Part shown: piece by piece, positions 4,415 through 23,264 of the stretch
Layout of the letters: the number at the start of each line of letters is the position of its first letter
Position numbering within the stretch: position 1 is the first letter of the stretch
IMG/VR virus record: IMGVR_UViG_3300044237_004289
Location: 1-25,748 of that record
Length of the DNA: 25,748 nucleotides
DNA from: a virus
Strand: one strand, 5' to 3'
Translations under genes and position numbers: made by a program
Notes under the pieces: model-generated
Databases searched by the model: none
What the model was told of the DNA's origin: nothing
What the model saw: the letters and a program-made list of their open reading frames with translations, nothing else

Positions 4415-6799
4415 ATGTCTATCGAATCCTTAGCAGAGCTCTTACGGTTCCAATCGGAGCTGGCAGTAGATCGTGCTAAGCGAAACATTGAACAACAAAA
4501 GGCTACCGCCGAACAATTCACTCCTACGCCAGCACAAAGTGCTTATATCGGTACGATTTTTGTACCTGGCTCTGGTATAGCCGACGCCTCTGGCGTCTTT
4601 CCTGAGTTTCCAAGTGCAGACGTACCTCTCTCAGAATATCTATCTGGCGAACCAATGCCTTCCATAGCTGAAAACATCGCAGCTGGTGGCATTGATCGTT
4701 ACTTAATTGCACCCTTACAAGGTTTAGGTGTTGCAGGCGATGCTTTGTATGCCGTACCAGGTGCTGGACCTCTTTTAGGTGCTACTTTAGGTTCTGGTCT
4801 GAAAGGGATAGGTGCGTTAGGGATAGCTGCAAGAGCAGCGAGTAAGGGTGCCAAGACTGAAAAAGGTATTACCACGCTTGACGAAACCAAAAATCTTATT
4901 AAAGCCGACATTGACGAGTATGCCAAAGACGAGTTTGGTTTTGTTTCGCCAACTTTAGAAGCGCTAATTAGAGAGGCACCACCGAATCTGAAAGGTCCTG
5001 CGATTAACGATTGGTTGGCTGCTAATACGCAAAAAGGTGTCAAGCCGAAAGAATTAGAGGTATTAGGCATTGATGAATTTATTAAGGCCAATCCACAAGC
5101 AACACTCTCCGAAGTGGTGGCAGGCGTCGCACCGAACAAAGTGCAGATTACTAAAACGGTAGCTGGTGGGGAGGGAAGTTATTTAGAGTTAACTCGCACA
5201 GTTCCAGAGGAAGATCCCTTGGATGGCAGTCTGCTTTACAATCCTGAGTTAGAGGATATTGAATACGAGTTGGCAGCAGATAATCCCGACATGCAATCTA
5301 TTATATTAGATTACTACAACAATGTAATAGCTAGAAATTTACCTGGCACTTCATCCAATCCTCTTGGCGATCCAGGACCTTACAAAAAATTGGAATCTTT
5401 TGACGAAATAGAACCATATTTGAGAGAAGGTTCTGGTAGTGAATACACAGGTGTAGATGATGTAGTAGAACAATATGCCAAAGAACAATATTTTAATGAT
5501 CCATTTGAACAACTTACTGCACGAGACATTGGTGAAGATACTTTTGCTTTCGGTAATGAGAGTGTTGGCTATCAACTTTTTGTTCGTGGCAGACGTGTGA
5601 CTGACCCAAACAACGTAGCTTTCAGTCGAACCGAGGCAGAAATTCAACTTAGAAACAAAATACAAGAAGAAGGCTTAGGTACTTATCGTGTTGACGCTGA
5701 TGATTTTGACGAAGGCTTTGATGATTTGGTTAGGCCTACCCAATACAAATCTTACATCGACGAAACCTTACCCGGTGGCTCCAACTACCGAGAAGTTGTT
5801 TTTCGCTACGAAAATGCGCCAGAGCCACACAACGTAACTACGCACTTTGACGATGACCGAGCTCTAGCTAGTGCCCTCATCCGAGATCGTAAACTCGACG
5901 ATGGCGCTGAAACGCTCCACGTCGACGAGCTGCAATCGGATTTGCATACCAAAGGTTCGAGAGATGGTTATAAATTACCAGAAACAGTAAAAAAACAAGA
6001 AATTGATAAAGTAGATAAATTTTTAGAAGGAACAGGTCTGTCGGTAAAACAACCAGAAAGTGTAAAAGGTGAAATTGATATAGACTTCGTTGACCGAGTA
6101 ATATTTGTAAATGATGGCGATGAATTTTTAGGTGCTTTTCCTATGTCACAAGTAAAGGGTTTAGCAAATGAACTTAAACAAGGTAGAACAGCAAACTTTG
6201 GCTCTAAAACTGGAGATACTATAGTAAAAAATCTAGGACCACAAAAAATTTATGAGTTAGAAAAACTTGTAAAACCTTTAGATATCAGCTCAAGAGCCGT
6301 CCCTAACTATCCCTTCAAAGACGATTGGTATGTCATGTCACTCAAGCAATTAATCAAAGACGCCATCGACGAAGGCAAAGACGCTATTTCGGTTTCTACT
6401 TCGGCACCTATCAAAGCAAGGTATACCGACCAATACAGCAAGTTTTATGAGTCGCTGTACGACCAAAAAATACCCTCAGCGATGAAAAAGTTAGCCAACA
6501 AATACGGCGGTAAGTTTGAGAAAGGTAATCTAGATTTAGAAGATACTTTTAGTGATGATGTTTTAAGAATGACAAAAGGGCGTGATTATACTAGAAGTGA
6601 ACTTGATGATATTAGAAAAAATCTTCAACCTAATTTACAATCAAACATCATCCGCATCACCCCAGAAATGCGAGCTAAAATAGCCGAAGAAGGCTTACCT
6701 TCTTTTGCTTATGGTGGCTCAGTGCAAAAAAAAGGTATTGAAAATTTACCGATTATGCCTAGAAGACCAGGCATCGTGCGTGGCATCGGTTCAATTTAA
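4415..6799 (+). CDS. Large polyvalent-type phage protein, probably virion-associated
   Basis: A 794-residue protein. Residues 1-55 are helical and Gln-rich. Residues 95-145 are Gly/Ala-rich and hydrophobic (GLGVAGDALYAVPGAGPLLG onward), possibly membrane-interacting. The centre is acidic. The C-terminal third carries two blocks typical of large polyvalent proteins: NVTTHFDDDRALASALI with LHVDELQSD at about residues 502-509, and NYPFKDDWYVMSLKQLIKDA at about 631-650 followed by a SVSTSAPIKARYTDQY block. Such proteins of mobile elements and phages are thought to be delivered into the new host with DNA. The end (FAYGGSV then a Pro/Gly-rich tail) resembles C-termini of marine phage structural proteins. 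There is no signal peptide and no clear ribosome site. The enzymatic role, if any, is unknown. Confidence 0.7.
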   Translation: MSIESLAELLRFQSELAVDRAKRNIEQQKATAEQFTPTPAQSAYIGTIFVPGSGIADASGVFPEFPSADVPLSEYLSGEPMPSIAENIAAGGIDRYLIAPLQGLGVAGDALYAVPGAGPLLGATLGSGLKGIGALGIAARAASKGAKTEKGITTLDETKNLIKADIDEYAKDEFGFVSPTLEALIREAPPNLKGPAINDWLAANTQKGVKPKELEVLGIDEFIKANPQATLSEVVAGVAPNKVQITKTVAGGEGSYLELTRTVPEEDPLDGSLLYNPELEDIEYELAADNPDMQSIILDYYNNVIARNLPGTSSNPLGDPGPYKKLESFDEIEPYLREGSGSEYTGVDDVVEQYAKEQYFNDPFEQLTARDIGEDTFAFGNESVGYQLFVRGRRVTDPNNVAFSRTEAEIQLRNKIQEEGLGTYRVDADDFDEGFDDLVRPTQYKSYIDETLPGGSNYREVVFRYENAPEPHNVTTHFDDDRALASALIRDRKLDDGAETLHVDELQSDLHTKGSRDGYKLPETVKKQEIDKVDKFLEGTGLSVKQPESVKGEIDIDFVDRVIFVNDGDEFLGAFPMSQVKGLANELKQGRTANFGSKTGDTIVKNLGPQKIYELEKLVKPLDISSRAVPNYPFKDDWYVMSLKQLIKDAIDEGKDAISVSTSAPIKARYTDQYSKFYESLYDQKIPSAMKKLANKYGGKFEKGNLDLEDTFSDDVLRMTKGRDYTRSELDDIRKNLQPNLQSNIIRITPEMRAKIAEEGLPSFAYGGSVQKKGIENLPIMPRRPGIVRGIGSI

Positions 6800-7122
6800 T
6801 GCCCACTTACAATAAATTTTACTATCGACCCTTGCCAGATAATCTAACACTTGGCACAAGTGAGATTGAAGGCACTGGTGTTTTTGCAACAGAAAAACTA
6901 GAAGCCAACTTAGATTTAGGCATGACTCACATAAAAGTGCCAATTATTAACGGTTACATACGCACCCCACTTGGCGGTTTTGTCAATCACACCGAAGCAG
7001 CCAACTGTTATTTAGTGCAAAAATTGGATTGGGATGACTACCGAGTCTTTCATCTCTGCACCATGCGACCCATAAAAAAGGGTGAAGAACTCACCCTTAA
7101 TTATCATCTCGACGAAGATTAG
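6799..7122 (+). CDS. Minimal SET-domain protein (putative protein-lysine methyltransferase)
   Basis: At 107 residues it is about the size of the smallest viral SET enzymes. SEIEGTGVFATEKLEAN (residues 21-37) matches the N-terminal SET strand with the G-x-G-V/L-F-A pattern. GGFVNHTEAANCY (59-71) is the NHS/C pseudoknot motif. IKKGEELTLNYHLDE (92-106) is the GEEL-T-x-Y motif with the catalytic tyrosine at residue 102. There are no pre-SET or post-SET zinc clusters. It would transfer methyl groups from S-adenosylmethionine to lysines on a phage or host protein; the target is unknown. It starts by TAATG overlap with the polyvalent gene, so the two are likely co-expressed. Its 3' end converges on and overlaps (4 bases) the last minus-strand gene, and it carries that operon's terminator. 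Confidence 0.82.
   Translation: MPTYNKFYYRPLPDNLTLGTSEIEGTGVFATEKLEANLDLGMTHIKVPIINGYIRTPLGGFVNHTEAANCYLVQKLDWDDYRVFHLCTMRPIKKGEELTLNYHLDED
7074..7098 (-). terminator. Intrinsic terminator of the minus-strand operon
   Basis: Read on the minus strand, AAGGGTGA - GTTCT - TCACCCTT forms a perfect 8-bp stem (7098 back to 7078) with a GC-rich core. It is followed by an uninterrupted T tract (six Ts at 7079-7074). It begins 20 bases past the stop of the last minus-strand gene and lies wholly inside the SET-domain coding sequence on the opposite strand. Confidence 0.85.
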
Positions 7123-10065: not shown

Positions 10066-10857
10066 ATGAAACCAATTAAACAGATCAATAATGTCTACGG
10101 CTACATCCGGGTTTCAACCCACGAACAAGTAGCCAACGGCAGTTCCTTAGAGAACCAAAAGCAACTCATCACAGAGTTTGTCCAAGAAAAATACAACCGA
10201 CCCGTTGATAAATTTTTCATCGACGCTGGTGTCAGTGGCACCATCGGTATTACCGAACGCCCAGCTTCCAAAGAGCTGACCGATACCATTGATGCCCACG
10301 ACGTCATCGTTGCCACTCGCCTCGATAGACTCTCCAGATCCAGTGGCGATTTACTCAACACCATACCTGTGTTGGAAGACACTGGCGTTACCTTGTATTT
10401 CTGTCAGCAGTTTGGTGACGTACCGATTGTCTATCCAAAAACTAAAGACGCAACTGGACTTAAATCCAAGTTTGATATGAACGAGATGGCTAATCGCATT
10501 ATGTTGATGGTCTTGTCAGCTGTTTCCGAAATCGAACACGGTGCTATCAAAGATCGCCTCGCCGACGGTAAAGTAGTTTGGGCAGAAAAAGGTTATTCGA
10601 TAGGTGGACACACACCATTTGGTTATGAGAAAGCTTATGAAAAAGTCGGTAATAAAATGCACACCAAGTTGATACCGATAGAAGAAGAACAAGCCGTTTT
10701 GAAAACCATTTACAACTGTCGAAAACGTGGCTTAGGAGCTCGTCGGATTGCCAAACAAGTCAGCAATCGTCATCCTGGTTACGAGAACTTTTCGGTCAAC
10801 AAAGTAGCAAAGATTATCAATCGTAAGTTTCAAGGCTTACCAGAGTCAGCTATTTAG
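10066..10857 (+). CDS. Serine site-specific recombinase (resolvase/integrase family)
   Basis: A 263-residue protein with the resolvase catalytic domain. YGYIRVSTHEQ carries the nucleophilic serine at residue 17, and ATRLDRLSRSSGDL has the arginines near residues 85, 88 and 91. GGHTPFGYEK and VLKTIYNCRKRGLGARRIA then mark the recombinase DNA-binding domain of the larger serine recombinases. It lacks the long zinc-ribbon/coiled-coil end of large integrases (usually over 450 residues) but is longer than invertases (about 190). It may integrate the phage, resolve multimers or invert DNA. No flanking inverted repeats or att core are visible. It is divergently transcribed from the small-gene operon through a shared control region. 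Confidence 0.88.
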   Translation: MKPIKQINNVYGYIRVSTHEQVANGSSLENQKQLITEFVQEKYNRPVDKFFIDAGVSGTIGITERPASKELTDTIDAHDVIVATRLDRLSRSSGDLLNTIPVLEDTGVTLYFCQQFGDVPIVYPKTKDATGLKSKFDMNEMANRIMLMVLSAVSEIEHGAIKDRLADGKVVWAEKGYSIGGHTPFGYEKAYEKVGNKMHTKLIPIEEEQAVLKTIYNCRKRGLGARRIAKQVSNRHPGYENFSVNKVAKIINRKFQGLPESAI

Positions 10858-14809: not shown

Positions 14810-15103
14810 ATGGATTGGCTCAACCTAATTGCTGAATTAGGTGTTCCGATAGCTGGTGCTTTGGTCATGGCCTATTTTATTTTTTTAGTAATGAAGCAAC
14901 TTATGGACGGTTTGGTTAGTGAAATCAAAACCGTGCAAGGCATTACACAGATGTTAATCACTAGAGCTTCGATAATGAATAACGACATGATTCGCATTGA
15001 TACTTTAGTTTCAGCAGCTTTAGATTTATCTCCTGACCTCGACCGAATTGCTAGATCAGAAAATTTTGTGGAGGATGGCAAAATAGATGCCAGAAGAGAT
15101 TGA
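14810..15103 (+). CDS. Single-pass membrane protein, first of a related pair
   Basis: 97 residues. One N-terminal membrane segment (ELGVPIAGALVMAYFIFLVM, about 9-28) precedes a long helical, coiled-coil-like soluble part (LVSEIKTVQGITQMLITRA, then MIRIDTLVSAALDLSPDLDR). The layout is shared with the next gene (short N-terminus ending in LGVP/FGFP before the membrane helix, then a coiled coil with NNDMIRID / LDQDMIRLK), which suggests an old duplication. GAGG precedes the start. Possible holin accessory or antiholin; unproven. Confidence 0.65.
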   Translation: MDWLNLIAELGVPIAGALVMAYFIFLVMKQLMDGLVSEIKTVQGITQMLITRASIMNNDMIRIDTLVSAALDLSPDLDRIARSENFVEDGKIDARRD

Positions 15104-15387
15104 TGGACATTGTACAAATAGTTGCTGATTTTGGATTCCCAGTAGTAATGGTCATAGGTTTAGGTTACTTTGTTTATTATGTTTGGCAGACAATTACCAA
15201 TACCATAGATCCAGCTGTGCAAGAAATGAAAACTACTATCATACGGCTTACTGACCAGTTACGACTTTTAGACCAAGATATGATACGCTTGAAAGAGAAA
15301 GTATCTACAGTCATAGAGCTTAAAGAAAACGAAAACGATGAAAAGAAAGAAAACAGAAAAAGAACTAATACAAGACGAAAAGGTTAA
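15103..15387 (+). CDS. Single-pass membrane protein, second of the related pair
   Basis: 94 residues starting at MDIVQIVADFGFP. A TTG one codon earlier is possible, but ATG 15103 gives the usual TGATG junction with the previous gene. Membrane segment VVMVIGLGYFVYYVW is followed by a coiled coil (MKTTIIRLTDQLRLLDQDMI) and a lysine/arginine-rich end. Similar architecture to the preceding protein. Its last 50 bases also encode the start of the CsgF-like protein in another frame. Confidence 0.65.
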   Translation: MDIVQIVADFGFPVVMVIGLGYFVYYVWQTITNTIDPAVQEMKTTIIRLTDQLRLLDQDMIRLKEKVSTVIELKENENDEKKENRKRTNTRRKG

Positions 15388-15850
15388 AAATTGGTTTGCA
15401 GCCATAGGTTTAGGTTTCATAATTTTTACCTTAGTTTTTGCCTCAGTCGAAAGTGTTTTTGCAGATCAAATTACGCACAAATTTAAAAATCCGAGTTTCA
15501 GTGGTGTCGGTACTTCAAGCCATTACCTAACTATTGAAAATCAAGAATTTAGCAGAAAATTATCATTGAAGGAGGAGCTCAAAGCTTTGCAAGATGAAAT
15601 AGAGAGAGATAAAGAAAATACAACCCTAGCTCGTTTTGTTAGAAATTTAGAATCAAGAATATATGCTCAACTTTCAAGACAATTAGTTGAGAACTTATTT
15701 GGTGACGTGTCAAAAACATCTGGCACCTTAGAGCTAGAAAACAACTTAATAAGTTATACTAGCGATGGTGTGACAATAACATTAACTATTACAGACCCTG
15801 ATGGTAATACAACTGAAATATCTCTGCCTATTGGCTCTTTTACTTTCTAG
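15338..15850 (+). CDS. csgF: CsgF-like curli assembly factor
   Basis: 170 residues. A basic N-terminus and hydrophobic core (WFAAIGLGFIIFTLVFAS) end in VFA at 40-42, a good signal-peptidase site giving a mature protein from DQITHKF. ITHKFKNPSFSGVGTSS matches the start of mature CsgF (T-F-x-F-R/K-N-P-N/S-F-x-G), the segment that inserts into the CsgG channel in E. coli. ESRIYAQLSRQLVENLF corresponds to its central helix, and ITLTITDPDGNTTEISLPIG to its C-terminal strands. CsgF couples the pore to curlin nucleation at the cell surface. It is somewhat longer than E. coli CsgF (about 138) because of the extended N-terminus and a charged insert. Order F then G matches E. coli. Confidence 0.85.
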   Translation: MKRKKTEKELIQDEKVKNWFAAIGLGFIIFTLVFASVESVFADQITHKFKNPSFSGVGTSSHYLTIENQEFSRKLSLKEELKALQDEIERDKENTTLARFVRNLESRIYAQLSRQLVENLFGDVSKTSGTLELENNLISYTSDGVTITLTITDPDGNTTEISLPIGSFTF

Positions 15851-16673
15851 TTGTGCAATACACGAAGTAATAGAAGATACCGAAAAACAAAGATACAAAA
15901 GCAAAGGTACAACCGAAGCCACCATTTACGATTTACAGTCAGAAGCTTTATTTAATGTTCGCCCTCCTAAAGTTATGCCAGTTGTAGCGGTCTACGGCGA
16001 CGCCTTTACCGACCAAACTGGCCAGAGAAAAAGCAATTCTGAATTTGCGTTATTTTCTACTGCCGTAACTCAAGCTCCAAGCACTTTACTAATAAGGGCT
16101 TTAAAACATGCAGCCAATGGCAAGTTTTTCAGAGTGGTTGAAAGAGTTGGCTTAGACAATTTAGTAAAAGAAAGACAACTAATAAGATCTGCAAGAGAGC
16201 AATTTGCTGAAAATGAAGAAGACAAAACTATACAACCTTTGTTGTTCGCTGGTGTCTTGCTCGAGGGTGCAGTGATAAGTTATGATACTAACTTAACGAG
16301 TGGAGGCGCAGGCGCCCGTCTACTCGGCATTGGTGGTAGTGTTCAGTACCGAGAGGACACAGTAAGCATAAGTTTACGGATGGTTTCTGTTGCTACTGGC
16401 GAGGTTCTTTTAGAAGTAACCAGTCAAAAAACCATATTTAGCTATGGCAAATCCAACGACGTATTCAAGTTCTTTGAAGCTGGAACTGAGTTGATTGAGA
16501 TAGAAATAGGTTCTGCTCGAAACGAAAGTACCACAATAGCTTTGATGAAAGCGATTGAAAGTGCTGTTTTAGAACTAATAAACTTAGGTTATGACAGGAG
16601 TTTTTGGACACATGACATTAAAATTGATAAGCCTAGTTGCATTGATGATAAGTGTGACGATTTACGGGGCTGA
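15801..16673 (+). CDS. csgG: CsgG-like outer-membrane curli secretion lipoprotein
   Basis: 290 residues, near the 277 of E. coli CsgG. The lipoprotein signal ends in LSSC with the lipidated cysteine at residue 18. Strong family blocks follow: VVAVYGDAFTDQTGQ, FSTAVTQAPSTLLIRALK, FFRVVERVGLDNLVKERQLI, SGGAGARLLGIGGSVQYRED, LRMVSVATGEVLLEV and SAVLELINLGYDRSFW. CsgG forms a nine-subunit beta-barrel pore that exports curlins without ATP. At the constriction loop, F85 lines up with E. coli F56, while the positions of Y51 and N55 appear as S80 and L84, so the channel throat may differ. The only ATG supplying a lipobox overlaps csgF by 50 bases. Ribosome site not evident; translation is probably coupled. 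Confidence 0.93.
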   Translation: MVIQLKYLCLLALLLSSCAIHEVIEDTEKQRYKSKGTTEATIYDLQSEALFNVRPPKVMPVVAVYGDAFTDQTGQRKSNSEFALFSTAVTQAPSTLLIRALKHAANGKFFRVVERVGLDNLVKERQLIRSAREQFAENEEDKTIQPLLFAGVLLEGAVISYDTNLTSGGAGARLLGIGGSVQYREDTVSISLRMVSVATGEVLLEVTSQKTIFSYGKSNDVFKFFEAGTELIEIEIGSARNESTTIALMKAIESAVLELINLGYDRSFWTHDIKIDKPSCIDDKCDDLRG

Positions 16674-17340
16674 TAACGAAATCTACATCGAACAATCTGG
16701 AACACAAGCTAATATTGACTTAGAGCAAATTGGCAGTGGCAACATAATAGGTGGTTTACAATCAACACCTGGCAGTATGAATCCTTTAGATTTGGACGGT
16801 AATGTGATGACTTTAGACATCAATATGATTGGAAACTCTAACAAATTCTTAGGCGATATATGGGCAGACACTTATACAGGATTTTTTCAGTTTGATGGAG
16901 ATAGTAATGTTTTTACTATGCAAACTGACCCAAACAACACTTTTGGAGCTGATAACTCAAATGTAAATGTTAATGTTACTGGTAGCACAAACCTATTCAC
17001 ATTAAATCAAGCCACGTCAGCTTTAGCTAGTCAGTTGGATTTAGACTGGATTATTAACGGCGATGGCAATCAGATAACTTCAAATATTAACTACGATGGA
17101 GCTACCAACTACATGGACATCGACGGTAACTCTAATAGTATTTCTTTTACTGGTAGTGGCTATGCTGGAGGATATTTTTATTGGGACCACACAGGTAATA
17201 ATACTGCTTTAAACGTACAACAGTTAAGCACACAAGACAATGATTGGCTCAAAATTATATCTACATCAAGTAATACTGGTAATAACACTAGCTCTTTCTG
17301 CATCATTCAAAACGATCAAGGCACAAGCACAGGTTGTTGA
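16612..17340 (+). CDS. Curlin-like secreted amyloid protein (CsgA/CsgB family, divergent)
   Basis: 242 residues. ATG 16612 gives a clean signal peptide (KLISLVALMISVTIYGA) cut after residue 20; ATG 16591 would spoil it. AGGAG is 11 bases upstream. EIYIEQSGTQANIDLEQIGS is the classic curlin strand-loop-strand (Q-x-G-x2-N). Further looser repeats continue to the end (FDGDSNVFTMQ, INGDGNQITSNI, IDGNSNSISFTG, HTGNNTALNVQQ), giving an Asn/Gly/Ser/Thr-rich beta-solenoid. Two cysteines near the C-terminus (C234 and the final C242) are unusual for curlins. It is the obvious export substrate of the preceding CsgF/CsgG and would be laid on the cell surface. E. coli CsgA has about 150 residues, so this is long and less regular. 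Confidence 0.8.
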   Translation: MTLKLISLVALMISVTIYGADNEIYIEQSGTQANIDLEQIGSGNIIGGLQSTPGSMNPLDLDGNVMTLDINMIGNSNKFLGDIWADTYTGFFQFDGDSNVFTMQTDPNNTFGADNSNVNVNVTGSTNLFTLNQATSALASQLDLDWIINGDGNQITSNINYDGATNYMDIDGNSNSISFTGSGYAGGYFYWDHTGNNTALNVQQLSTQDNDWLKIISTSSNTGNNTSSFCIIQNDQGTSTGC

Positions 17341-18370
17341 TAACATAGGTGACATCACAGAGCTAAATGGTCAAGCACAGATTGTAAGAGATAAAACTTA
17401 TGATGCTGCCTTAAAATTTACCATACAACAAAATGACGAAGCGATAACTAATAATGGCCGAATGGCTATAACCTTTTTAGACGAAAGCACGGTTCGTCTA
17501 ACAGAACATTCGCAGTTGATTGTTGACGAGTATATTTTTGACCCAAACCCTTCTAACTCAAAAATGGCTTTGACTTTTGGTTTAGGCACCGCCAGATTTA
17601 TAACAGGTAATCTCAACCGCATCGATAAACAAAATATAAAATTAAAAACCCCAACGGCTAACATAGCTATCAGAGGCACCGATTTTACAGTGACAGTAGA
17701 TGAATTAGGTAGATCTTTGATTATTTTGTTACCTGACGCATTAGGGCTATCTAGTGGTGAAATAGAAGTTATTACTGCAACCGGGTCAGTATTGCTTAAT
17801 AAACCTTTTGAAGCAACTTCGGTTTCTGTTTTTGAAGCAAGTCCATCTAGCCCGGTGGTGCTAGATTTAACTTTGGGTGACATTGACAATATGTTGATTG
17901 TGAAAGCACCTGCTGAAAAAGAAGCGGTAGTGCAAGAACAAACAAAAGCAAAACAAGCAAATTTTTTAGATTTCAATGATTTAGATATTGATTATCTGGA
18001 AGAGGATTTTTTGAAAGAAGACGATTTAGAGTTTACTGAATTAGATATAAATTATCTTGATGTAAATTTCCTAGAAGATTTATTAGATGTTTTAGATGTT
18101 TTAGCTGTTGGCGAAGAAGAAGATCAATTACGGGAGGTGTCTGGTATAAACATATCTGGAACTTTGATAGGGCAAGATCCAGATACACAAATCACAACGA
18201 TTGTGTCTGGTCAACAAGTGAGCTTGCGTCGTGCAGTTAGCGACTCAGCTCGTGTTGACATTGACGGCAGTAATTCTTACACAATAATTTTTATTCAAGA
18301 CGGTACTTCAAATGTTGTTAAAATAAATGGTGGTAGTGATTCAACTATTACTATCACACAAAGCAACTGA
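17240..18370 (+). CDS. Secreted FecR-domain protein with acidic repeats and curlin-like C-terminus
   Basis: 376 residues. A signal peptide (KLYLHQVILVITLALSASF then KAQA) ends near residue 28-30. The FecR domain covers about 32-165: ITELNGQAQIVRD, MAITFLDESTVRLTEHSQL, LTFGLGTARFITGNL, KTPTANIAIRGTDFTVTV. Residues 245-284 are two 20-residue acidic repeats of the F-x-x-LDI-x-YL type. The end (SYTIIFIQDGTSNVVKINGG, then STITITQSN) follows curlin spacing (S-x6-Q-x-G-x2-N), suggesting it can join or cap the curlin fibre. FecR proteins of this RGTDF type often adjoin CHASE2 cyclases, as here. The gene overlaps the curlin gene by 101 bases and the cyclase by one. There is no membrane anchor, so its final location is periplasm or surface. 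Confidence 0.82.
   Translation: MIGSKLYLHQVILVITLALSASFKTIKAQAQVVDNIGDITELNGQAQIVRDKTYDAALKFTIQQNDEAITNNGRMAITFLDESTVRLTEHSQLIVDEYIFDPNPSNSKMALTFGLGTARFITGNLNRIDKQNIKLKTPTANIAIRGTDFTVTVDELGRSLIILLPDALGLSSGEIEVITATGSVLLNKPFEATSVSVFEASPSSPVVLDLTLGDIDNMLIVKAPAEKEAVVQEQTKAKQANFLDFNDLDIDYLEEDFLKEDDLEFTELDINYLDVNFLEDLLDVLDVLAVGEEEDQLREVSGINISGTLIGQDPDTQITTIVSGQQVSLRRAVSDSARVDIDGSNSYTIIFIQDGTSNVVKINGGSDSTITITQSN
17972..18091 (+). repeat. Tandem 60-bp duplication encoding two acidic 20-residue units
   Basis: Units 17972-18031 and 18032-18091 encode FNDLDIDYLEEDFL and FTELDINYLDVNFL followed by acidic residues. The DNA copies have diverged but keep frame and register. They lie between the FecR domain and the curlin-like tail. 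Confidence 0.65.
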
Positions 18371-20130
18371 TGAAATATTTGATAATACCTTTAATTTCTT
18401 TACTGATTTTACCTTTAGTTTTTACTAGCACGCCAACAGAGATTATTAAACTGAAAACCTTTGATGCTTTGGTAAAAGCACAAACCGAAAGCGGTAATTT
18501 TGTGATTTTAAATATAAACGAAAAAGATATACAGAATGAAGGCGGCTGGCCTTTGCCAAGAAAAAGATTAGCTGAAATTAATGATTTACTTTTAGCTTAT
18601 GGCGCTACAGGAGTCGGTTGGGTCATAGCTTTTCCACAACCAGACCGATTAGGTGGAGACCAAGCTTTTGCTGACTCTTTGCAGCTCGCACCAACAATAC
18701 TTGCAACCTTTGAAAACCCAGCTGGTACTTTTCCGAAAACTATAGGCACAATCATCAAAGGTAATTCAGTTGTCGGTTTAGAAACAAAAGGTGTGATTGA
18801 AAACACAGATTTGTTGAGAACTGCAACAGCTCAAGGCATAGCTGTAGCACCAGTAGATGTAGATAATTTAGTAAGACGTTTACCTTTATTGCTACGCACT
18901 CCAGACGGTTGGGTATCAGCTTTTGGCACAGAAGTTTTAAAAATCTTAACAGGAACTAAATCTTACATAATTACTTCCGATGACTTAGGCATCAAAGAAA
19001 TTGCAGTCAGAGGTTTGCCACCAGTAAAAACCGATAGTCTAGGTAGAAAATGGATTTCTTGGGTAGACACTCCAGAAACTGACTTAGCGAGCATGGATGT
19101 CAATGGACGATTTGTTTTTGTTGGAGTGACGGCGCCTGGTGTAATGCCACAGTTAGCAACACCAGTAGGCTTATTAGAGCCACACAAAATTCAAGCTGCC
19201 TTATCGGAAAGCATGTTGATACAAGACTCACCTATAATCCCTGATTATAGTTTATTAGCAGAATTAATGATTTTGTTAGTTACTACGGTTTTAGTTTGGT
19301 TTTTGTTGTTTTACCTTGGTATCAATTTAGGCTTGTTTTTCAGCGCAGTTATTTTGGGGATGACAGCTTTTTTTGGTTACTACCTAATACAAAAAGGTTT
19401 GCTGATAGATGTAAGTTGGACTCTAATTAGTCAGTTTATTGTCGGTGCTGTTGCTTTTTACCTTAGATTCAGAGAGCAATACAAACTTCGGTTACAGATA
19501 AAAAAACAGTTTGAACATTATTTAGATCCTCGCCAAGTCAAAAAATTACAGTCAAATCCAAGTTTACTGAAATTAGGTGGTGAAAAGAAAACTGCTACTT
19601 TTTTATTCACTGATGTCAGAGGATTCACTTCTATGTCAGAAGAGTTAGCACCTGAAAAAGTAACGTACATAATGAACAAGGTTTTAACAGTTCAACAAAA
19701 AGCCGTGCAAAAATACGATGGTATGGTAGATAAATACATAGGTGACGCAATGATGGCAATTTTTAACGCTCCTTTAGATTTAGAAAACCATGAAGAAAAA
19801 GCCATAGATTGCGCTAAAGAAATTGCTAAAAACATGCAAGAACTCAATGAAGAGTTGATAAAAAGTGCTTTACCAGAAATAGAAATAGGTATAGGTGTCA
19901 ACTCTGGCAAAGCTGTAATAGGTAATATGGGCAGTGCTACAAGGTTCGATTATACGGCTATCGGCGATGCAGTAAATCTTGCAGCTAGACTAGAGAGTGC
20001 TACAAAAGAACAAAAAGTGAATATATTAATAGGCGAAGACACTGCCAATAACTGTCAATATGATTTAAGATATGTCAACGACATTTTTGTGAAAGGTAAA
20101 ATTTCACCCGTTAAAATATATGGGATTTAA
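18370..20130 (+). CDS. CHASE2-domain membrane class III nucleotide cyclase
   Basis: 586 residues. An N-terminal membrane helix (residues 2-18) leads into a periplasmic CHASE2-type sensor (about 22-285: FVILNINEKDIQNEGGWPLP, FVFVGVTAPGVMPQLATPVG). Three membrane helices follow (about 292-366), a short linker (YLRFREQYKLRLQIKKQFEH), and a cyclase domain from about 405. Metal-binding aspartates are at 415 (FTDVRGFT) and 459 (YIGDAMMAIF). The purine-specifying pair is Lys455 and Thr529, as in ATP-using class IIIb enzymes, and transition-state residues are N536 and R540 (YTAIGDAVNLAARLE). All catalytic residues are intact. It should make cAMP in the host cytoplasm in response to a periplasmic signal. 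It is coupled to the FecR gene by TGATG; the spanin gene starts inside its end. Confidence 0.92.
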   Translation: MKYLIIPLISLLILPLVFTSTPTEIIKLKTFDALVKAQTESGNFVILNINEKDIQNEGGWPLPRKRLAEINDLLLAYGATGVGWVIAFPQPDRLGGDQAFADSLQLAPTILATFENPAGTFPKTIGTIIKGNSVVGLETKGVIENTDLLRTATAQGIAVAPVDVDNLVRRLPLLLRTPDGWVSAFGTEVLKILTGTKSYIITSDDLGIKEIAVRGLPPVKTDSLGRKWISWVDTPETDLASMDVNGRFVFVGVTAPGVMPQLATPVGLLEPHKIQAALSESMLIQDSPIIPDYSLLAELMILLVTTVLVWFLLFYLGINLGLFFSAVILGMTAFFGYYLIQKGLLIDVSWTLISQFIVGAVAFYLRFREQYKLRLQIKKQFEHYLDPRQVKKLQSNPSLLKLGGEKKTATFLFTDVRGFTSMSEELAPEKVTYIMNKVLTVQQKAVQKYDGMVDKYIGDAMMAIFNAPLDLENHEEKAIDCAKEIAKNMQELNEELIKSALPEIEIGIGVNSGKAVIGNMGSATRFDYTAIGDAVNLAARLESATKEQKVNILIGEDTANNCQYDLRYVNDIFVKGKISPVKIYGI

Positions 20131-20530
20131 GTTAAGTTTAATTTTAGGAGGATTATTAGTGGCAACAGTGTCTGGTTCGGCTTTTTATATAAAATACCTT
20201 AATAACCAAATATCCACCTTACAAGCCAATCAAATTGTCTTAGAAGATAAAATTACTGAACAAAACGAGTCAATAAAAAATTATCTAACAAAACAAAAAG
20301 AAACTATGGCGCAAATGCAAACGCTTGAAGCCGAAAAACAAGAAGCAGTAAGATCGGTTACAGAACTTAGAAATAAATTTGCAAGGCATGATTTGAATAA
20401 TCTTGCTTTAGTTAAACCTGGATTAATTGAAAAAAGAGTCAATGCTGGCTCAAAAAAAGTTTTTGATGAGCTAACTTCAATTACTTCCCCTAGAGTAGAA
20501 GAAGATGAAAATATCTCTCCTAATAATTAG
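20120..20530 (+). CDS. Inner-membrane spanin (Rz-like)
   Basis: 136 residues: a single N-terminal membrane anchor (LSLILGGLLVATVSGSAFYI), then a long periplasmic coiled coil (QISTLQANQIVLEDKITEQN through MQTLEAEKQEAV), and the block ELRNKFARHDLNNLALVKPG, seen in phage Rz-like proteins before GLIEKRVNAGSKKVFDEL. This is the i-spanin layout. It partners the overlapping lipoprotein downstream to fuse inner and outer membranes in the last lysis step. The gene starts 11 bases inside the cyclase gene, so the spanins are co-transcribed with the curli/cyclase cassette. Confidence 0.8.
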   Translation: MGFKLSLILGGLLVATVSGSAFYIKYLNNQISTLQANQIVLEDKITEQNESIKNYLTKQKETMAQMQTLEAEKQEAVRSVTELRNKFARHDLNNLALVKPGLIEKRVNAGSKKVFDELTSITSPRVEEDENISPNN

Positions 20531-20876
20531 CTCATTGTTTGTCTTGGGTGGCTGTTCAACACTGCCCAAGACACAACCAGTAGAGGTTAGAACCATAGCT
20601 GAAATACCACCGATGTATCACCCTCCATTACCCTTAGAAATACAAGGAGTAGCTGTAAAATGGAAGGTTTTAACACCAGAAATCATGCAAGAGTATTTAG
20701 ATCTTGTAGAAACAGGCAAAGCCCCTGCTATGCCTTACTATGCTTTGACCACACAACAATATGAAAATTTATCTTTGAACATGGCAGAAATAACAAGATA
20801 TACCAAAAACATTTTGTCGATAGTTGAGTATTACAGAAACTACGATAAATCAAAAAAGGAGAATAGTGATGAGTGA
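20505..20876 (+). CDS. Outer-membrane lipoprotein spanin (Rz1-like)
   Basis: 123 residues. The signal sequence ISLLIISSLFVLGGC carries a lipobox with the lipidated cysteine at residue 17. A proline-rich segment (IPPMYHPPLPLEIQG) is the hallmark of o-spanins. The rest is mostly helical (LTPEIMQEYLDLVETGKAPA, LSLNMAEITRYTKNILSIVE). It overlaps the i-spanin gene by 26 bases, a common Rz/Rz1 arrangement, and is longer than the 60-residue lambda Rz1. It should anchor in the inner leaflet of the outer membrane and bind the i-spanin across the periplasm. Confidence 0.75.
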   Translation: MKISLLIISSLFVLGGCSTLPKTQPVEVRTIAEIPPMYHPPLPLEIQGVAVKWKVLTPEIMQEYLDLVETGKAPAMPYYALTTQQYENLSLNMAEITRYTKNILSIVEYYRNYDKSKKENSDE

Positions 20877-21246
20877 CAACCCAGATGCTTTTGTTTATCA
20901 AGCAGAACTAGATAGAGTCGTTGACGGCGATACTGTTGATGTCGTATTAGATTTAGGCTTTGATGTAAAATTACACAAACAAAGAGTAAGATTGCACGGT
21001 ATCGACACCCCAGAGTCGAGAACAAGAAACTTAGCAGAAAAAAAACTTGGATTGGCAGCCAAAGAAAGATTGAAAGAGCTCTGTGTAGGCAAGTTTAAAG
21101 TTAAATCATTAGGAAAAGGTAAATACGGTAGGATTTTAGGCATACCTTACACAGAAACAGGAGAAGATATTTGTCAAAAATTAATAGATGAAGGACATGC
21201 TGTAAAATATCATGGCGGAAAGAAAACTAAAGTATGGGGAGCGTAA
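20869..21246 (+). CDS. Thermonuclease-like (staphylococcal nuclease fold) protein
   Basis: 125 residues starting at MSDNPDAFVYQAEL; AAAGGAG is well spaced and the start overlaps the spanin stop (ATGAGTGA). A frame from 20824 is only an extension. RVVDGDTVDVVLDLGF (16-31), RVRLHGIDTPESR (39-51) and GKYGRILG (84-91) carry the calcium- and phosphate-binding residues of the SNase family (aspartates at 19 and 21, R41, E49, R88). No signal peptide is seen, so it would act in the cytoplasm or after lysis. Roles could include host DNA degradation for nucleotide reuse. The lysis-gene context is notable. Confidence 0.85.
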   Translation: MSDNPDAFVYQAELDRVVDGDTVDVVLDLGFDVKLHKQRVRLHGIDTPESRTRNLAEKKLGLAAKERLKELCVGKFKVKSLGKGKYGRILGIPYTETGEDICQKLIDEGHAVKYHGGKKTKVWGA

Positions 21247-21248
21247 TT

Positions 21249-21692
21249 ATGAAAATATCAGAGGAAGGCAAGGCTTTAATTAAAAAGTTTGAAGGTTGTA
21301 AATTAGAAAGTTACTTATGCCCAGCAGGACATTGGACTGTAGGTTTTGGGCATGTTAAGGGAGTAGAGGAAGGTATGACAATAACACAAAATGAAGCCGA
21401 TGCTTACTTATCAAGTGATTTACAAGAATTTGAAACATACGTTGAAAATATGGTGAATGTAGAACTAGAGCAAAATGAATTTGATGCTTTGGTTTGTTGG
21501 ACTTTTAATTTAGGACCAACTAATCTGAGCACATCAACCTTGTTAAAAGTTTTAAATGAAGGCAAAAAAAACGAGGTACCTGCACAAATAAAGAGATGGA
21601 ATAAAGCATCTGGAGAGGTGTTAGAAGGACTTGTAAGAAGAAGAGAAGCCGAAGCTTTGTTATTTCAAGGTAAAGAATGGCACGAAGTATAG
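21249..21692 (+). CDS. Endolysin, GH24 lysozyme (muramidase)
   Basis: 147 residues from MKISEEGKALIKKFEG; an upstream ATG at 21234 is inside the nuclease gene. The T4/P22-type GH24 triad is E15 (KKFEG), C24 and T30 (LCPAGHWTVGFGH): E-x8-C-x5-T, the cysteine replacing the more usual aspartate. CWTFNLGPTNLSTSTLLK and LEGLVRRREAEALLF are further family blocks. It hydrolyses the MurNAc-GlcNAc bonds of peptidoglycan. There is no signal or SAR segment, so release needs a holin. With the spanins it completes the lysis functions. There is no obvious terminator directly after it. Confidence 0.92.
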   Translation: MKISEEGKALIKKFEGCKLESYLCPAGHWTVGFGHVKGVEEGMTITQNEADAYLSSDLQEFETYVENMVNVELEQNEFDALVCWTFNLGPTNLSTSTLLKVLNEGKKNEVPAQIKRWNKASGEVLEGLVRRREAEALLFQGKEWHEV

Positions 21693-21710: not shown

Positions 21711-21769
21711 CTAGGCATTTTATGCTTAGGGTTGTGCGATTACTATGTCACTACCTAATTGTGCAACCC
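21711..21769 (+). other. Two consecutive hairpins between endolysin and terminase genes
   Basis: CTAGGCAT (21711-21718) pairs with ATGCTTAG (21722-21729) around a three-base loop. GGGTTGTGC (21729-21737) pairs with GTGCAACCC (21761-21769), with two G-T pairs. No T tract follows either stem, so these are structured RNA or DNA-binding candidates rather than clear terminators. Confidence 0.4.
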
Positions 21770-21779
21770 GCTTAATTTT

Positions 21780-23264
21780 ATGGATTTGAACAAGCTCAAA
21801 GATTTCGACATTTTATCTGAACAAGATAAACAAGAAGCTTTAGCCCTGCTTCATAGATACGAACAAATTGATAAACAAGAAGAGTGTCAAAATGATTTTA
21901 TAAAATTTGTCAAACACCTCTGGCCAGATTTTATTGAAGGTAGGCACCACAAAATTATTAGCGAAAAATTTAATCGAATTGCACAAGGTAAACTAAAGAG
22001 GTTGATAGTTTGTTTGCCGCCTAGACATTCTAAATCTGAATTTGCTTCTACTTATTTTCCCGCTTGGATGATGGGTAGAAAAGGTGATTTAAAAATTATT
22101 CAAACCACGCACACAGCTGAATTAGCCGTGCGCTTTGGTAGAAAAGTTAGAAATATTATCGATAGTGAAGAGTATCAACACATATTTCCAGAACTTAAAT
22201 TACAAGCCGATAATAAATCAGCAGGTCGTTGGACAACTAACCAAGATGGCGAGAGTTATTACGCAGGTGTAGGTGGTGCAATTACTGGACGTGGTGCTGA
22301 TTTACTTATTATCGATGATCCTCATTCAGAACAAGATGCTATGTCCCCAAAAGCCATGGAATCGGCTTATGAGTGGTACACCTCTGGACCTAGACAGCGT
22401 TTACAACCAGGAGGCACGATTGTCATAGTAATGACACGTTGGAGCACCAAAGACTTGGTAGGGAAAGTTTTGAAAAAACAAGGCGAAGAAAACGCCGATC
22501 AGTGGGAAATAGTTGAGTTTCCTGCAATCATGCCAGAATCAGAAACTCCACTGTGGCCAGAATTTTGGCAAAAAGAAGAGTTGTTATCAGTAAAGGCGTC
22601 TTTACCCTTGCCTAAATGGAACAGCCAATGGTTACAAAATCCTACGGCAGAGGAAGGTAGTATCGTAAAAAGGGAGTGGTGGCGACGCTGGGAGGAGGAC
22701 AACGTGCCAGATTATAATTATGTCATACAAAGTTATGACACAGCTTTTTCCAAAAAAGATACTGCGGATTATTCAGCTATTACCACTTGGGCAATATTTG
22801 GAGACAATGACGACAATCCAGAAGGTATTATTTTATTAGACGCAAAAAGAGTTCGAGTTGATTTTCCAGAGCTAAAAAAAATAGCTTTAGAAGAATATAG
22901 ATATTGGGAACCAGATTGTGTCTTAATAGAGGCAAAAGCCTCTGGTACACCACTAACGCATGAATTAAGACGCATGGGCATACCTGTTACTGCTTACTCA
23001 CCTAGTCGTGGTCAAGATAAAGTAGCAAGAATGAATAGTGTTGCACCTATTTTTGAATCAGGCATGGTTTGGGCTCCAGAGCATGAATTTGCAGACGAAG
23101 TTATTGAAGAAATGGCTAGTTTCCCTTATGGCGATTATGATGACTATTGTGATAGTGCAACCATGGCTTTGATGCGTTTCAGACAAGGAGGTTTCTTGTC
23201 ACTAAAAGAGGATTATCAAGAAGAGGCTAAATTTATGCGTAAAAACAGAACCGTTTATTATTAA
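21780..23264 (+). CDS. terL: Terminase large subunit
   Basis: 494 residues from ATG 21780 (MDLNKLKDF); a TTG seven codons earlier is less likely. The ATPase domain has a Walker-A-like CLPPRHSKSEFAS near 80, Walker B LLIIDDPHSEQ near 177, and the coupling motif VMTRWSTKDL. The nuclease domain has QSYDTAFSKKDTADYSAITT, LIEAKASG and DYCDSATMALM, providing the three acidic metal ligands of the RNase-H-like fold. It translocates DNA into the prohead and cuts concatemers. No clear ribosome site is seen. Followed by TAATG into a small gene and then the portal. Confidence 0.95.
   Translation: MDLNKLKDFDILSEQDKQEALALLHRYEQIDKQEECQNDFIKFVKHLWPDFIEGRHHKIISEKFNRIAQGKLKRLIVCLPPRHSKSEFASTYFPAWMMGRKGDLKIIQTTHTAELAVRFGRKVRNIIDSEEYQHIFPELKLQADNKSAGRWTTNQDGESYYAGVGGAITGRGADLLIIDDPHSEQDAMSPKAMESAYEWYTSGPRQRLQPGGTIVIVMTRWSTKDLVGKVLKKQGEENADQWEIVEFPAIMPESETPLWPEFWQKEELLSVKASLPLPKWNSQWLQNPTAEEGSIVKREWWRRWEEDNVPDYNYVIQSYDTAFSKKDTADYSAITTWAIFGDNDDNPEGIILLDAKRVRVDFPELKKIALEEYRYWEPDCVLIEAKASGTPLTHELRRMGIPVTAYSPSRGQDKVARMNSVAPIFESGMVWAPEHEFADEVIEEMASFPYGDYDDYCDSATMALMRFRQGGFLSLKEDYQEEAKFMRKNRTVYY

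Follow-up and report, generated by a model that had tools for sequence, protein, structure and literature searches.

The window, meaning here the whole 25,748-nucleotide stretch analysed (positions 1 to 25,748 of IMG/VR virus record IMGVR_UViG_3300044237_004289), carries genes for a large terminase subunit (TerL), a portal, a lysozyme and spanins. Its TerL (62% identical to that of phage 023Pt_psg01 and 57-59% to those of pelagiphages HTVC027P and HTVC023P) and its portal-like protein (48-52% identical to those of the same three phages) place the phage near the HTVC023P-type pelagiphages. This study concerns the open reading frame (ORF) at 18370-20130, which is apparently intact and is predicted to encode a catalytically competent CHASE2 receptor adenylate cyclase, a putative producer of cyclic AMP (cAMP). 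The ORF is the last gene of a curli-type module, in which two small membrane proteins are followed by CsgF, CsgG, a curlin-like protein, a FecR-domain protein and then the cyclase. Modules of this type are already in print and the window adds a further member; the new part is a sister module linked to type I secretion, with FecR-headed adhesins, which was not found in the literature and phage records searched. The module and its neighbours are laid out as follows.

14810-15103, + strand: small membrane protein, 97 amino acids (aa), one transmembrane (TM) segment and a coiled coil, phrog_18771; paralogue of the next gene
15100-15387, + strand: second small membrane protein, 95 aa, phrog_18771; weak holin similarity (phrog_4898, E 5.2e-4)
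15338-15850, + strand: CsgF-like curli chaperone (Pfam CsgF, E 2.6e-16)
15801-16673, + strand: CsgG-like outer membrane curli export pore, a lipoprotein (Pfam CsgG, E 5.9e-47; NCBIfam CsgG below cut-off)
16591-17340, + strand: curlin-like repeat protein, presumed exported fibre subunit (position, and a family shared with the 'curlin-associated protein' of HTVC008M)
17240-18370, + strand: FecR-domain protein (Pfam FecR, E 8.8e-10; model; Foldseek)
18370-20130, + strand: predicted CHASE2 receptor adenylate cyclase, 586 aa (Pfam, catalytic alignment, model, conservation)
18403-19287, + strand: CHASE2 sensor domain of the cyclase, residues 12-306, mostly periplasmic (Pfam)
19252-19455, + strand: three membrane helices of the cyclase, residues 295-313, 322-340 and 344-362 (hydropathy, model)
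19588-20109, + strand: class III catalytic domain of the cyclase, residues 407-580 (Pfam, fold match)
20120-20876, + strand: Rz and Rz1 spanin genes, directly downstream; neighbours outside the conserved module
21234-21692, + strand: phage lysozyme, a neighbour (Pfam)
21759-23264, + strand: terminase large subunit, nearest to HTVC023P-type pelagiphages

The receptor cyclase and its module

Both halves of the protein match Pfam families above cut-off, CHASE2 at residues 12-306 (E 5.9e-28) and Guanylate_cyc at residues 407-580 (E 2.1e-22), and because these E-values are accompanied by hundreds of viral relatives the identity of the ORF is not a matter of chance. Class III cyclases employ two metal-binding aspartates, an asparagine and an arginine that act on the transition state, and a lysine with a threonine or aspartate that contact the substrate. 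In the window cyclase this residue set is complete: D415, K455, D459, T529, N536 and R540 align with D16, K56, D60, T133, N140 and R144 of Pseudomonas aeruginosa CyaB (3r5g), and the substrate pair is K/T, as in the adenylyl cyclase CyaB. The initial annotation of this DNA had described an intact membrane cyclase encoded by a phage, with these six residues at these numbers; the viral record, the Pfam domains, the viral relatives and the alignment, in which none of the six is lost, bear this out. An AlphaFold2 model, built with 22 viral sequences as input, has a mean predicted local distance difference test (pLDDT) score of 82, and its catalytic domain matches the folds of CyaC, Cya2 and CyaB. 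Hydropathy reveals four hydrophobic segments, one at the N terminus (residues 3-21) and three after CHASE2 (295-313, 322-340 and 344-362), so that the three membrane helices of the annotation are found after the sensor while the N-terminal segment brings the number to four. The resulting order of N-terminal TM segment, periplasmic CHASE2 domain, three TM helices and cytoplasmic output domain is that of a CHASE2 receptor cyclase, and three TM segments following CHASE2 are also described in PMC5192318. The sensor faces the periplasm beside the curlin-like and FecR-domain proteins, as the annotation had proposed, and enzymatic activity of the cyclase is likely.

Scanning viral contigs with the window cyclase as query returned at least 598 encoding stretches (598 of 600 examined), the 80 best of which were retained for locus counts; a second scan, with the cyclase of contig L086 as query, returned 302 viral stretches, of which 80 were retained. 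Among 160 window-clade sequences (159 distinct viral ORFs plus the window, with 7 or 8 sequences gapped per position), D415, K455, D459, N536 and R540 are invariant wherever covered, except in L289, a 159-aa fragment with E and S at two catalytic positions. The catalytic residues are retained in 152 of the 153 scorable relatives, position 529 being T in 93 sequences and S in 59. The second viral clade retains them in 70/70 ORFs, with S at 529. Comparison of the whole cyclase with three close relatives by the Nei-Gojobori method gave rough ratios of non-synonymous to synonymous substitution rates (dN/dS) of 0.065-0.081, with several dS values above 1. Two matches named 'Acinetobacter phage MD-2021a' (CAKLQH020000011.1 and CAKLQF020000009.1) were rejected as relatives; in CAKLQH020000011.1 the cyclase match lies amid bacterial housekeeping genes (mfd, iscS, hscA), and this record appears to be bacterial DNA.

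The two parts of the protein may not always have travelled together. In L252 and L253 the CHASE2 part is 83-84% identical to that of the window and the catalytic part 64%, whereas in L251 both parts are 81-83% identical, a contrast that suggests exchange of the catalytic domain by recombination. In a quick tree of 82 cyclases, with Shimodaira-Hasegawa-like approximate likelihood ratio support only and with bacterial members taken from the matches of one scan, the sampled viral cyclases form one group (support 100) adjoining Alphaproteobacteria (92), and the window clade (100) and the type-I clade (99) are nested within it.

The association of the cyclase with the curli-type genes is consistent across viruses. 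CsgF, CsgG, curlin and FecR lie directly upstream of the cyclase in 33 of the 34 loci with at least 4 kilobases (kb) of upstream sequence, and in the remaining one, L014, CsgF is just beyond the counting range. Approached from CsgG, for which a single-sequence scan yielded 6 close relatives and an alignment-based scan at least 595, the 80 nearest being retained, 41 of 41 loci in this sample of near relatives have curlin, FecR and cyclase. The curlin label derives from the position of the gene and from its membership of the same family as the annotated HTVC008M curlin protein; the Pfam Curlin_rpt match (E 0.92) is below cut-off. The FecR ORF as listed begins about 100 bases within the curlin ORF (window 17240-17340), and comparable overlaps occur in relatives. 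No kinase domain was found in the window genes before csgF, which encode the 97- and 95-aa membrane proteins. This one-TM coiled-coil pair (window 14810-15387, phrog_18771), weakly holin-like, recurs with the curli modules and with the type I cyclase modules described below, even in a reoriented form. A search for bacterial curli genes in 385 genomes of a single class, the one to which a Stappia contig belongs, matched CsgG in 30, five of the matches being strong (E <1e-70), and neither FecR nor cyclase was found in the 19.5 kb around each of these five; an intact bacterial donor was therefore not seen among them. Elsewhere in the window, the phage encodes a serine recombinase (10066-10857; Pfam Resolvase, E 3.3e-26) and a small SET-domain protein (6799-7122; Pfam SET, E 2.6e-8). 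An ORF at 9999-10310 of L086, a virus contig with a type I module, resembles the latter, by eye only.

FecR domains beside CHASE2 receptors

FecR iron regulators have a cytoplasmic sigma-binding N terminus, one TM segment and a periplasmic FecR domain, and act with a partner sigma factor. The window protein starts with a hydrophobic stretch that resembles a signal peptide, followed by a FecR beta domain (model residues 44-222), a disordered acidic linker and a C-terminal beta hairpin; its model is poor overall (pLDDT 56), with residues 44-222 as the ordered domain. Foldseek matches this model to 4m0h and to 6ovk, the latter being the PupR cell-surface signalling domain (E about 1e-4), and no PDB entry was matched by a profile of the FecR family at E up to 1. 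Since there is no further membrane segment and PF04773 was the only Pfam match, with no anti-sigma part found, the protein is not a FecR-type anti-sigma regulator, and no sigma factor was found among the window ORFs scanned with Pfam. Iron regulation was accordingly rejected, the sole hydrophobic stretch being N-terminal, and we read the protein as a probable free periplasmic cell-surface-signalling domain. The idea that its conserved last 36 residues form a curlin tail was also rejected: of 223 curlin ORFs, none was hit by the tail profile at E up to 1, and relaxing the limit to E 10 gave 4 curlin ORFs vs 10 reversed decoys.

The second viral clade brings the same kind of receptor together with a different export route. 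The cyclase of L086, a contig from a metagenome-assembled genome, is 100% identical to that of an IMG/VR contig over the part which that contig covers, and it adjoins a long adhesin-like ORF and TolC, ABC and HlyD-type ORFs (the type I Pfam names are taken from the relative L215, and the ABC label is by resemblance only, with no Pfam match in L215). Among 25 loci of this clade with at least 1.5 kb of upstream sequence, the upstream genes are those of type I secretion in 18 and curli genes in 7; in 66/80 loci the two small membrane proteins are encoded no more than 1.2 kb from the cyclase end. One viral contig type (L171:1-10536 and L234) has two CHASE2 cyclases, the first after type I secretion genes and the second carried by a convergent CsgF-CsgG-curlin-FecR block with a FecR protein of 739 aa.

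The exported proteins of the type I loci bear cadherin or RTX domains. All six distinct type I adhesins with an intact start (L175, L187, L194, L197, L210 and L428; the ORFs of L176 and L213, at the same coordinates as that of L175, were not counted) have an N-terminal FecR domain, for which the best of 15,287 reversed decoys reached only E 0.097. Compared with the FecR family of the window, this N-terminal domain matches with 99.5% probability (E 2.5e-22, 184 columns). An adhesin profile also matches PDB 5ix9 ('antifreeze protein', E 7.1e-5), a chain that we take to be the N-terminal end of a Marinomonas RTX adhesin. No NCBIfam retention-module model was among the adhesin matches, and the idea of a retention module in these proteins is only faintly suggested by the sequences. 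The type I version of the cyclase module was not found in the literature searched, and 50,697 phage records contained no match to the outer-membrane component of the type I system. For two further proteins of a virus contig linked to type I secretion, the phage matches were only weak (25-28% identity), and a search of 15 viral records for the T4-type major head family found no match but is uninformative, as the control also gave none.

In bacteria, too, CHASE2 receptors are repeatedly found paired with surface proteins that carry a FecR domain. A same-strand FecR ORF lies within 500 bases of the cyclase in 18/79 bacterial CHASE2-cyclase loci, and within 5 kb in 8 more; CsgF, CsgG, curlin and the small membrane pair were found in none of the 79. 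Pfam detects FecR in all nine bacterial partner proteins examined. Four of these (L091, L118, L134 and L141) combine FecR with TPR and a TonB-receptor-like outer-membrane barrel, three from Brevibacillus combine it with Big_4 Ig domains (two also with fn3), and in the remaining two FecR is the only domain found. Previous work has reported CHASE2 cyclases clustered with an outer membrane protein that has a FecR domain in Campylobacterota (PMC9239204), and a Burkholderia operon regulating biofilm in which a CHASE2 histidine kinase accompanies a LysM-FecR protein (PMC5192318). The element common to the curli modules, the type I modules and the bacterial pairs is a surface- or outer-membrane-linked protein with a FecR domain, found next to a CHASE2 receptor whose output is cytoplasmic.

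A proposed report on surface deployment

In 2016 the target recognised by CHASE2 was stated as not known (PMC5192318). Because the FecR-CHASE2 pair is constant across the three settings, the simplest mechanism would be that FecR is what CHASE2 reads. We therefore propose, at even chances of being right, that the FecR domain is linked to the exported fibre and gates the CHASE2 cyclase, cAMP serving as the report on surface deployment. The infecting phage would export the curlin-like fibre via CsgG and CsgF, while the FecR-domain protein would remain periplasmic, tethered either to the fibre or on the side of the outer membrane. Through its FecR domain, which has the fold of FecR/PupR cell-surface signalling, this protein would engage CHASE2 and alter cyclase activity, so that cytoplasmic cAMP would signal whether the surface structure is deployed and would act on a host cyclic-nucleotide receptor. 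CyaD1 without CHASE2 makes cAMP constitutively (PMC5498481), which would fit release of inhibition. We infer that the enzyme is active and that FecR is what CHASE2 binds; the direction of the effect, the target in the host and what the phage gains are matters of inference as well. The initial annotation had suggested that the sensor could report envelope or fibre status to host regulation, and the comparative context, namely the FecR-CHASE2 pairing and the FecR-headed adhesins, favours this part of it.

More tentatively, a little short of an even chance, the same arrangement may be a general surface-deployment checkpoint of marine phages. A CHASE2 cyclase, usually with the small TM pair, would plug into either curli-type CsgG/CsgF export or type I export, and the FecR domain, as a separate protein or at the N terminus of an adhesin, would stay periplasmic in the manner of the retention end of RTX adhesins. 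If so, viruses of abundant ocean bacteria would equip the cell with machinery for exporting an adhesin and, along with it, a second-messenger circuit reporting on its deployment, and FecR would be suggested as a ligand for CHASE2.

Several observations weigh against the gating of the cyclase by a fibre-tied FecR domain. When loci are collected by way of the second small membrane protein, nine of 34 combine curli genes and FecR with no cyclase, and CHASE2 was found neither on these nine records, all possibly fragments, nor on L337; FecR must therefore be able to function where the cyclase is absent. In Melnitz the cyclase carries S instead of the catalytic Asn, as well as D at 529, and is possibly inactive or altered; this protein (L083:8917-10968) also bears a C-terminal extension. 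In bacteria FecR is near only the 18 of 79 cyclases noted above, detected with a phage-built profile, and in Sinorhizobium meliloti the Clr-controlled genes, including one for a FecR-domain protein, were dispensable for signal perception (PMC5498481). A cyclic-nucleotide-binding domain was found in 0/30 related phage records by a search that was positive in 10/14 control genomes, and as there is no phage-borne receptor in these the receptor must be the host's; nothing on such a host receptor was found among the papers listed on Pelagibacter and cAMP.

A rival explanation is a lysis-timing device, in which the holin-like small proteins, the CsgG/CsgF pore and the cyclase jointly time lysis, much as a lysis role has been proposed for the curli pores of Melnitz, where no cell clumping was observed (PMC9004378). 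A spanin or lysozyme gene lies within 2.5 kb downstream in 33 of the 49 loci with at least 2.5 kb of downstream sequence, one small membrane protein has the weak holin match listed above (E 5.2e-4), and in L337 the small membrane pair adjoins lysozyme with no curli gene. However, 16/49 loci have no lysis gene in range, the HTVC008M and Melnitz regions examined show no annotated lysis gene next to the module, the window phage already has spanins and lysozyme, and the same cyclase and pair accompany a type I adhesin system that would be superfluous for a lysis clock, and we regard this explanation as rather improbable. Reprogramming of the host independently of any fibre, with CHASE2 sensing the envelope or an external cue and raised cAMP pushing a CRP-type regulon, would account for an active site conserved in many viruses and, given the lack of a phage-borne receptor, for a host target. 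It leaves aside the surface-protein export genes that accompany the cyclase in 34/34 window-clade loci (counting L014) and 25/25 second-clade loci with enough readable upstream sequence, and it is unlikely in our view.

The remaining explanations are very hard to sustain. The initial annotation had offered interference with cyclic-nucleotide immunity as an alternative, and PADLOC PycC profiles indeed match the catalytic domain (best E 3.1e-29), which could point to a Pycsar-like cyclase, or to a decoy that disturbs such immunity. This match is expected by homology, since the class III domain is common to both; the window protein has the K/T pair of CyaB and is a membrane CHASE2 receptor, no defence effector neighbours it among the ORFs scanned, and the cyclase travels with export genes rather than defence genes, so that a role in defence or counter-defence finds little support and is highly improbable. 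It is just as doubtful that the cyclase is a vestigial passenger, copied along with the curli genes and devoid of an enzymatic role: its absence from the nine modules and the lost catalytic Asn of Melnitz would agree with this, but the near-invariant catalytic residues in two viral clades and the dN/dS of 0.065-0.081 count against it.

Comparison with known systems

The initial annotation had treated a phage-encoded cyclase as unexpected, but HTVC008M, Melnitz and uncultured pelagiphages have already been annotated with one (PMC9599517). That study, from 2022, described nine HTVC023P-type genomes with CsgF, CsgG, CsgA/B and FecR, often with an adenylate cyclase after them, together with counterparts in myoviruses, expression in metatranscriptomes and an alphaproteobacterial origin, and 'sibling capture' has also been proposed (PMC7029224). 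The window has the same collinear order of CsgF, CsgG, curlin repeat protein (its repeat below the Pfam cut-off), FecR and cyclase. It differs from the module as described in PMC9599517 in having no second curlin gene between FecR and cyclase; moreover, that account calls FecR an iron regulator and places a histidine kinase before csgF. In the window, HTVC008M and Melnitz this position is occupied by two membrane proteins of 92-115 aa, perhaps what is there called 'HK'. The adenylate/guanylate cyclases of HTVC008M and Melnitz are 34% and 30% identical to that of the window over 90-96% of the protein, within the same gene order, although in both phages a second curlin-like gene, lacking in the window, precedes the cyclase.

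Two bacterial systems resemble the proposed circuit. In S. meliloti the cyclases CyaD1, CyaD2 and CyaK act with the outer membrane protein NsrA (PMC13001267, PMC5498481), so that here too a CHASE2 cyclase reportedly reads a signal linked to the outer membrane; however, the system is bacterial, responds to a plant signal and acts on the Clr regulator. The Burkholderia BiofilmReg operon (PMC5192318) shares a periplasmic FecR protein, a CHASE2 sensor and a surface phenotype, namely biofilm, but it is likewise bacterial and its output is a histidine kinase instead of a cyclase.

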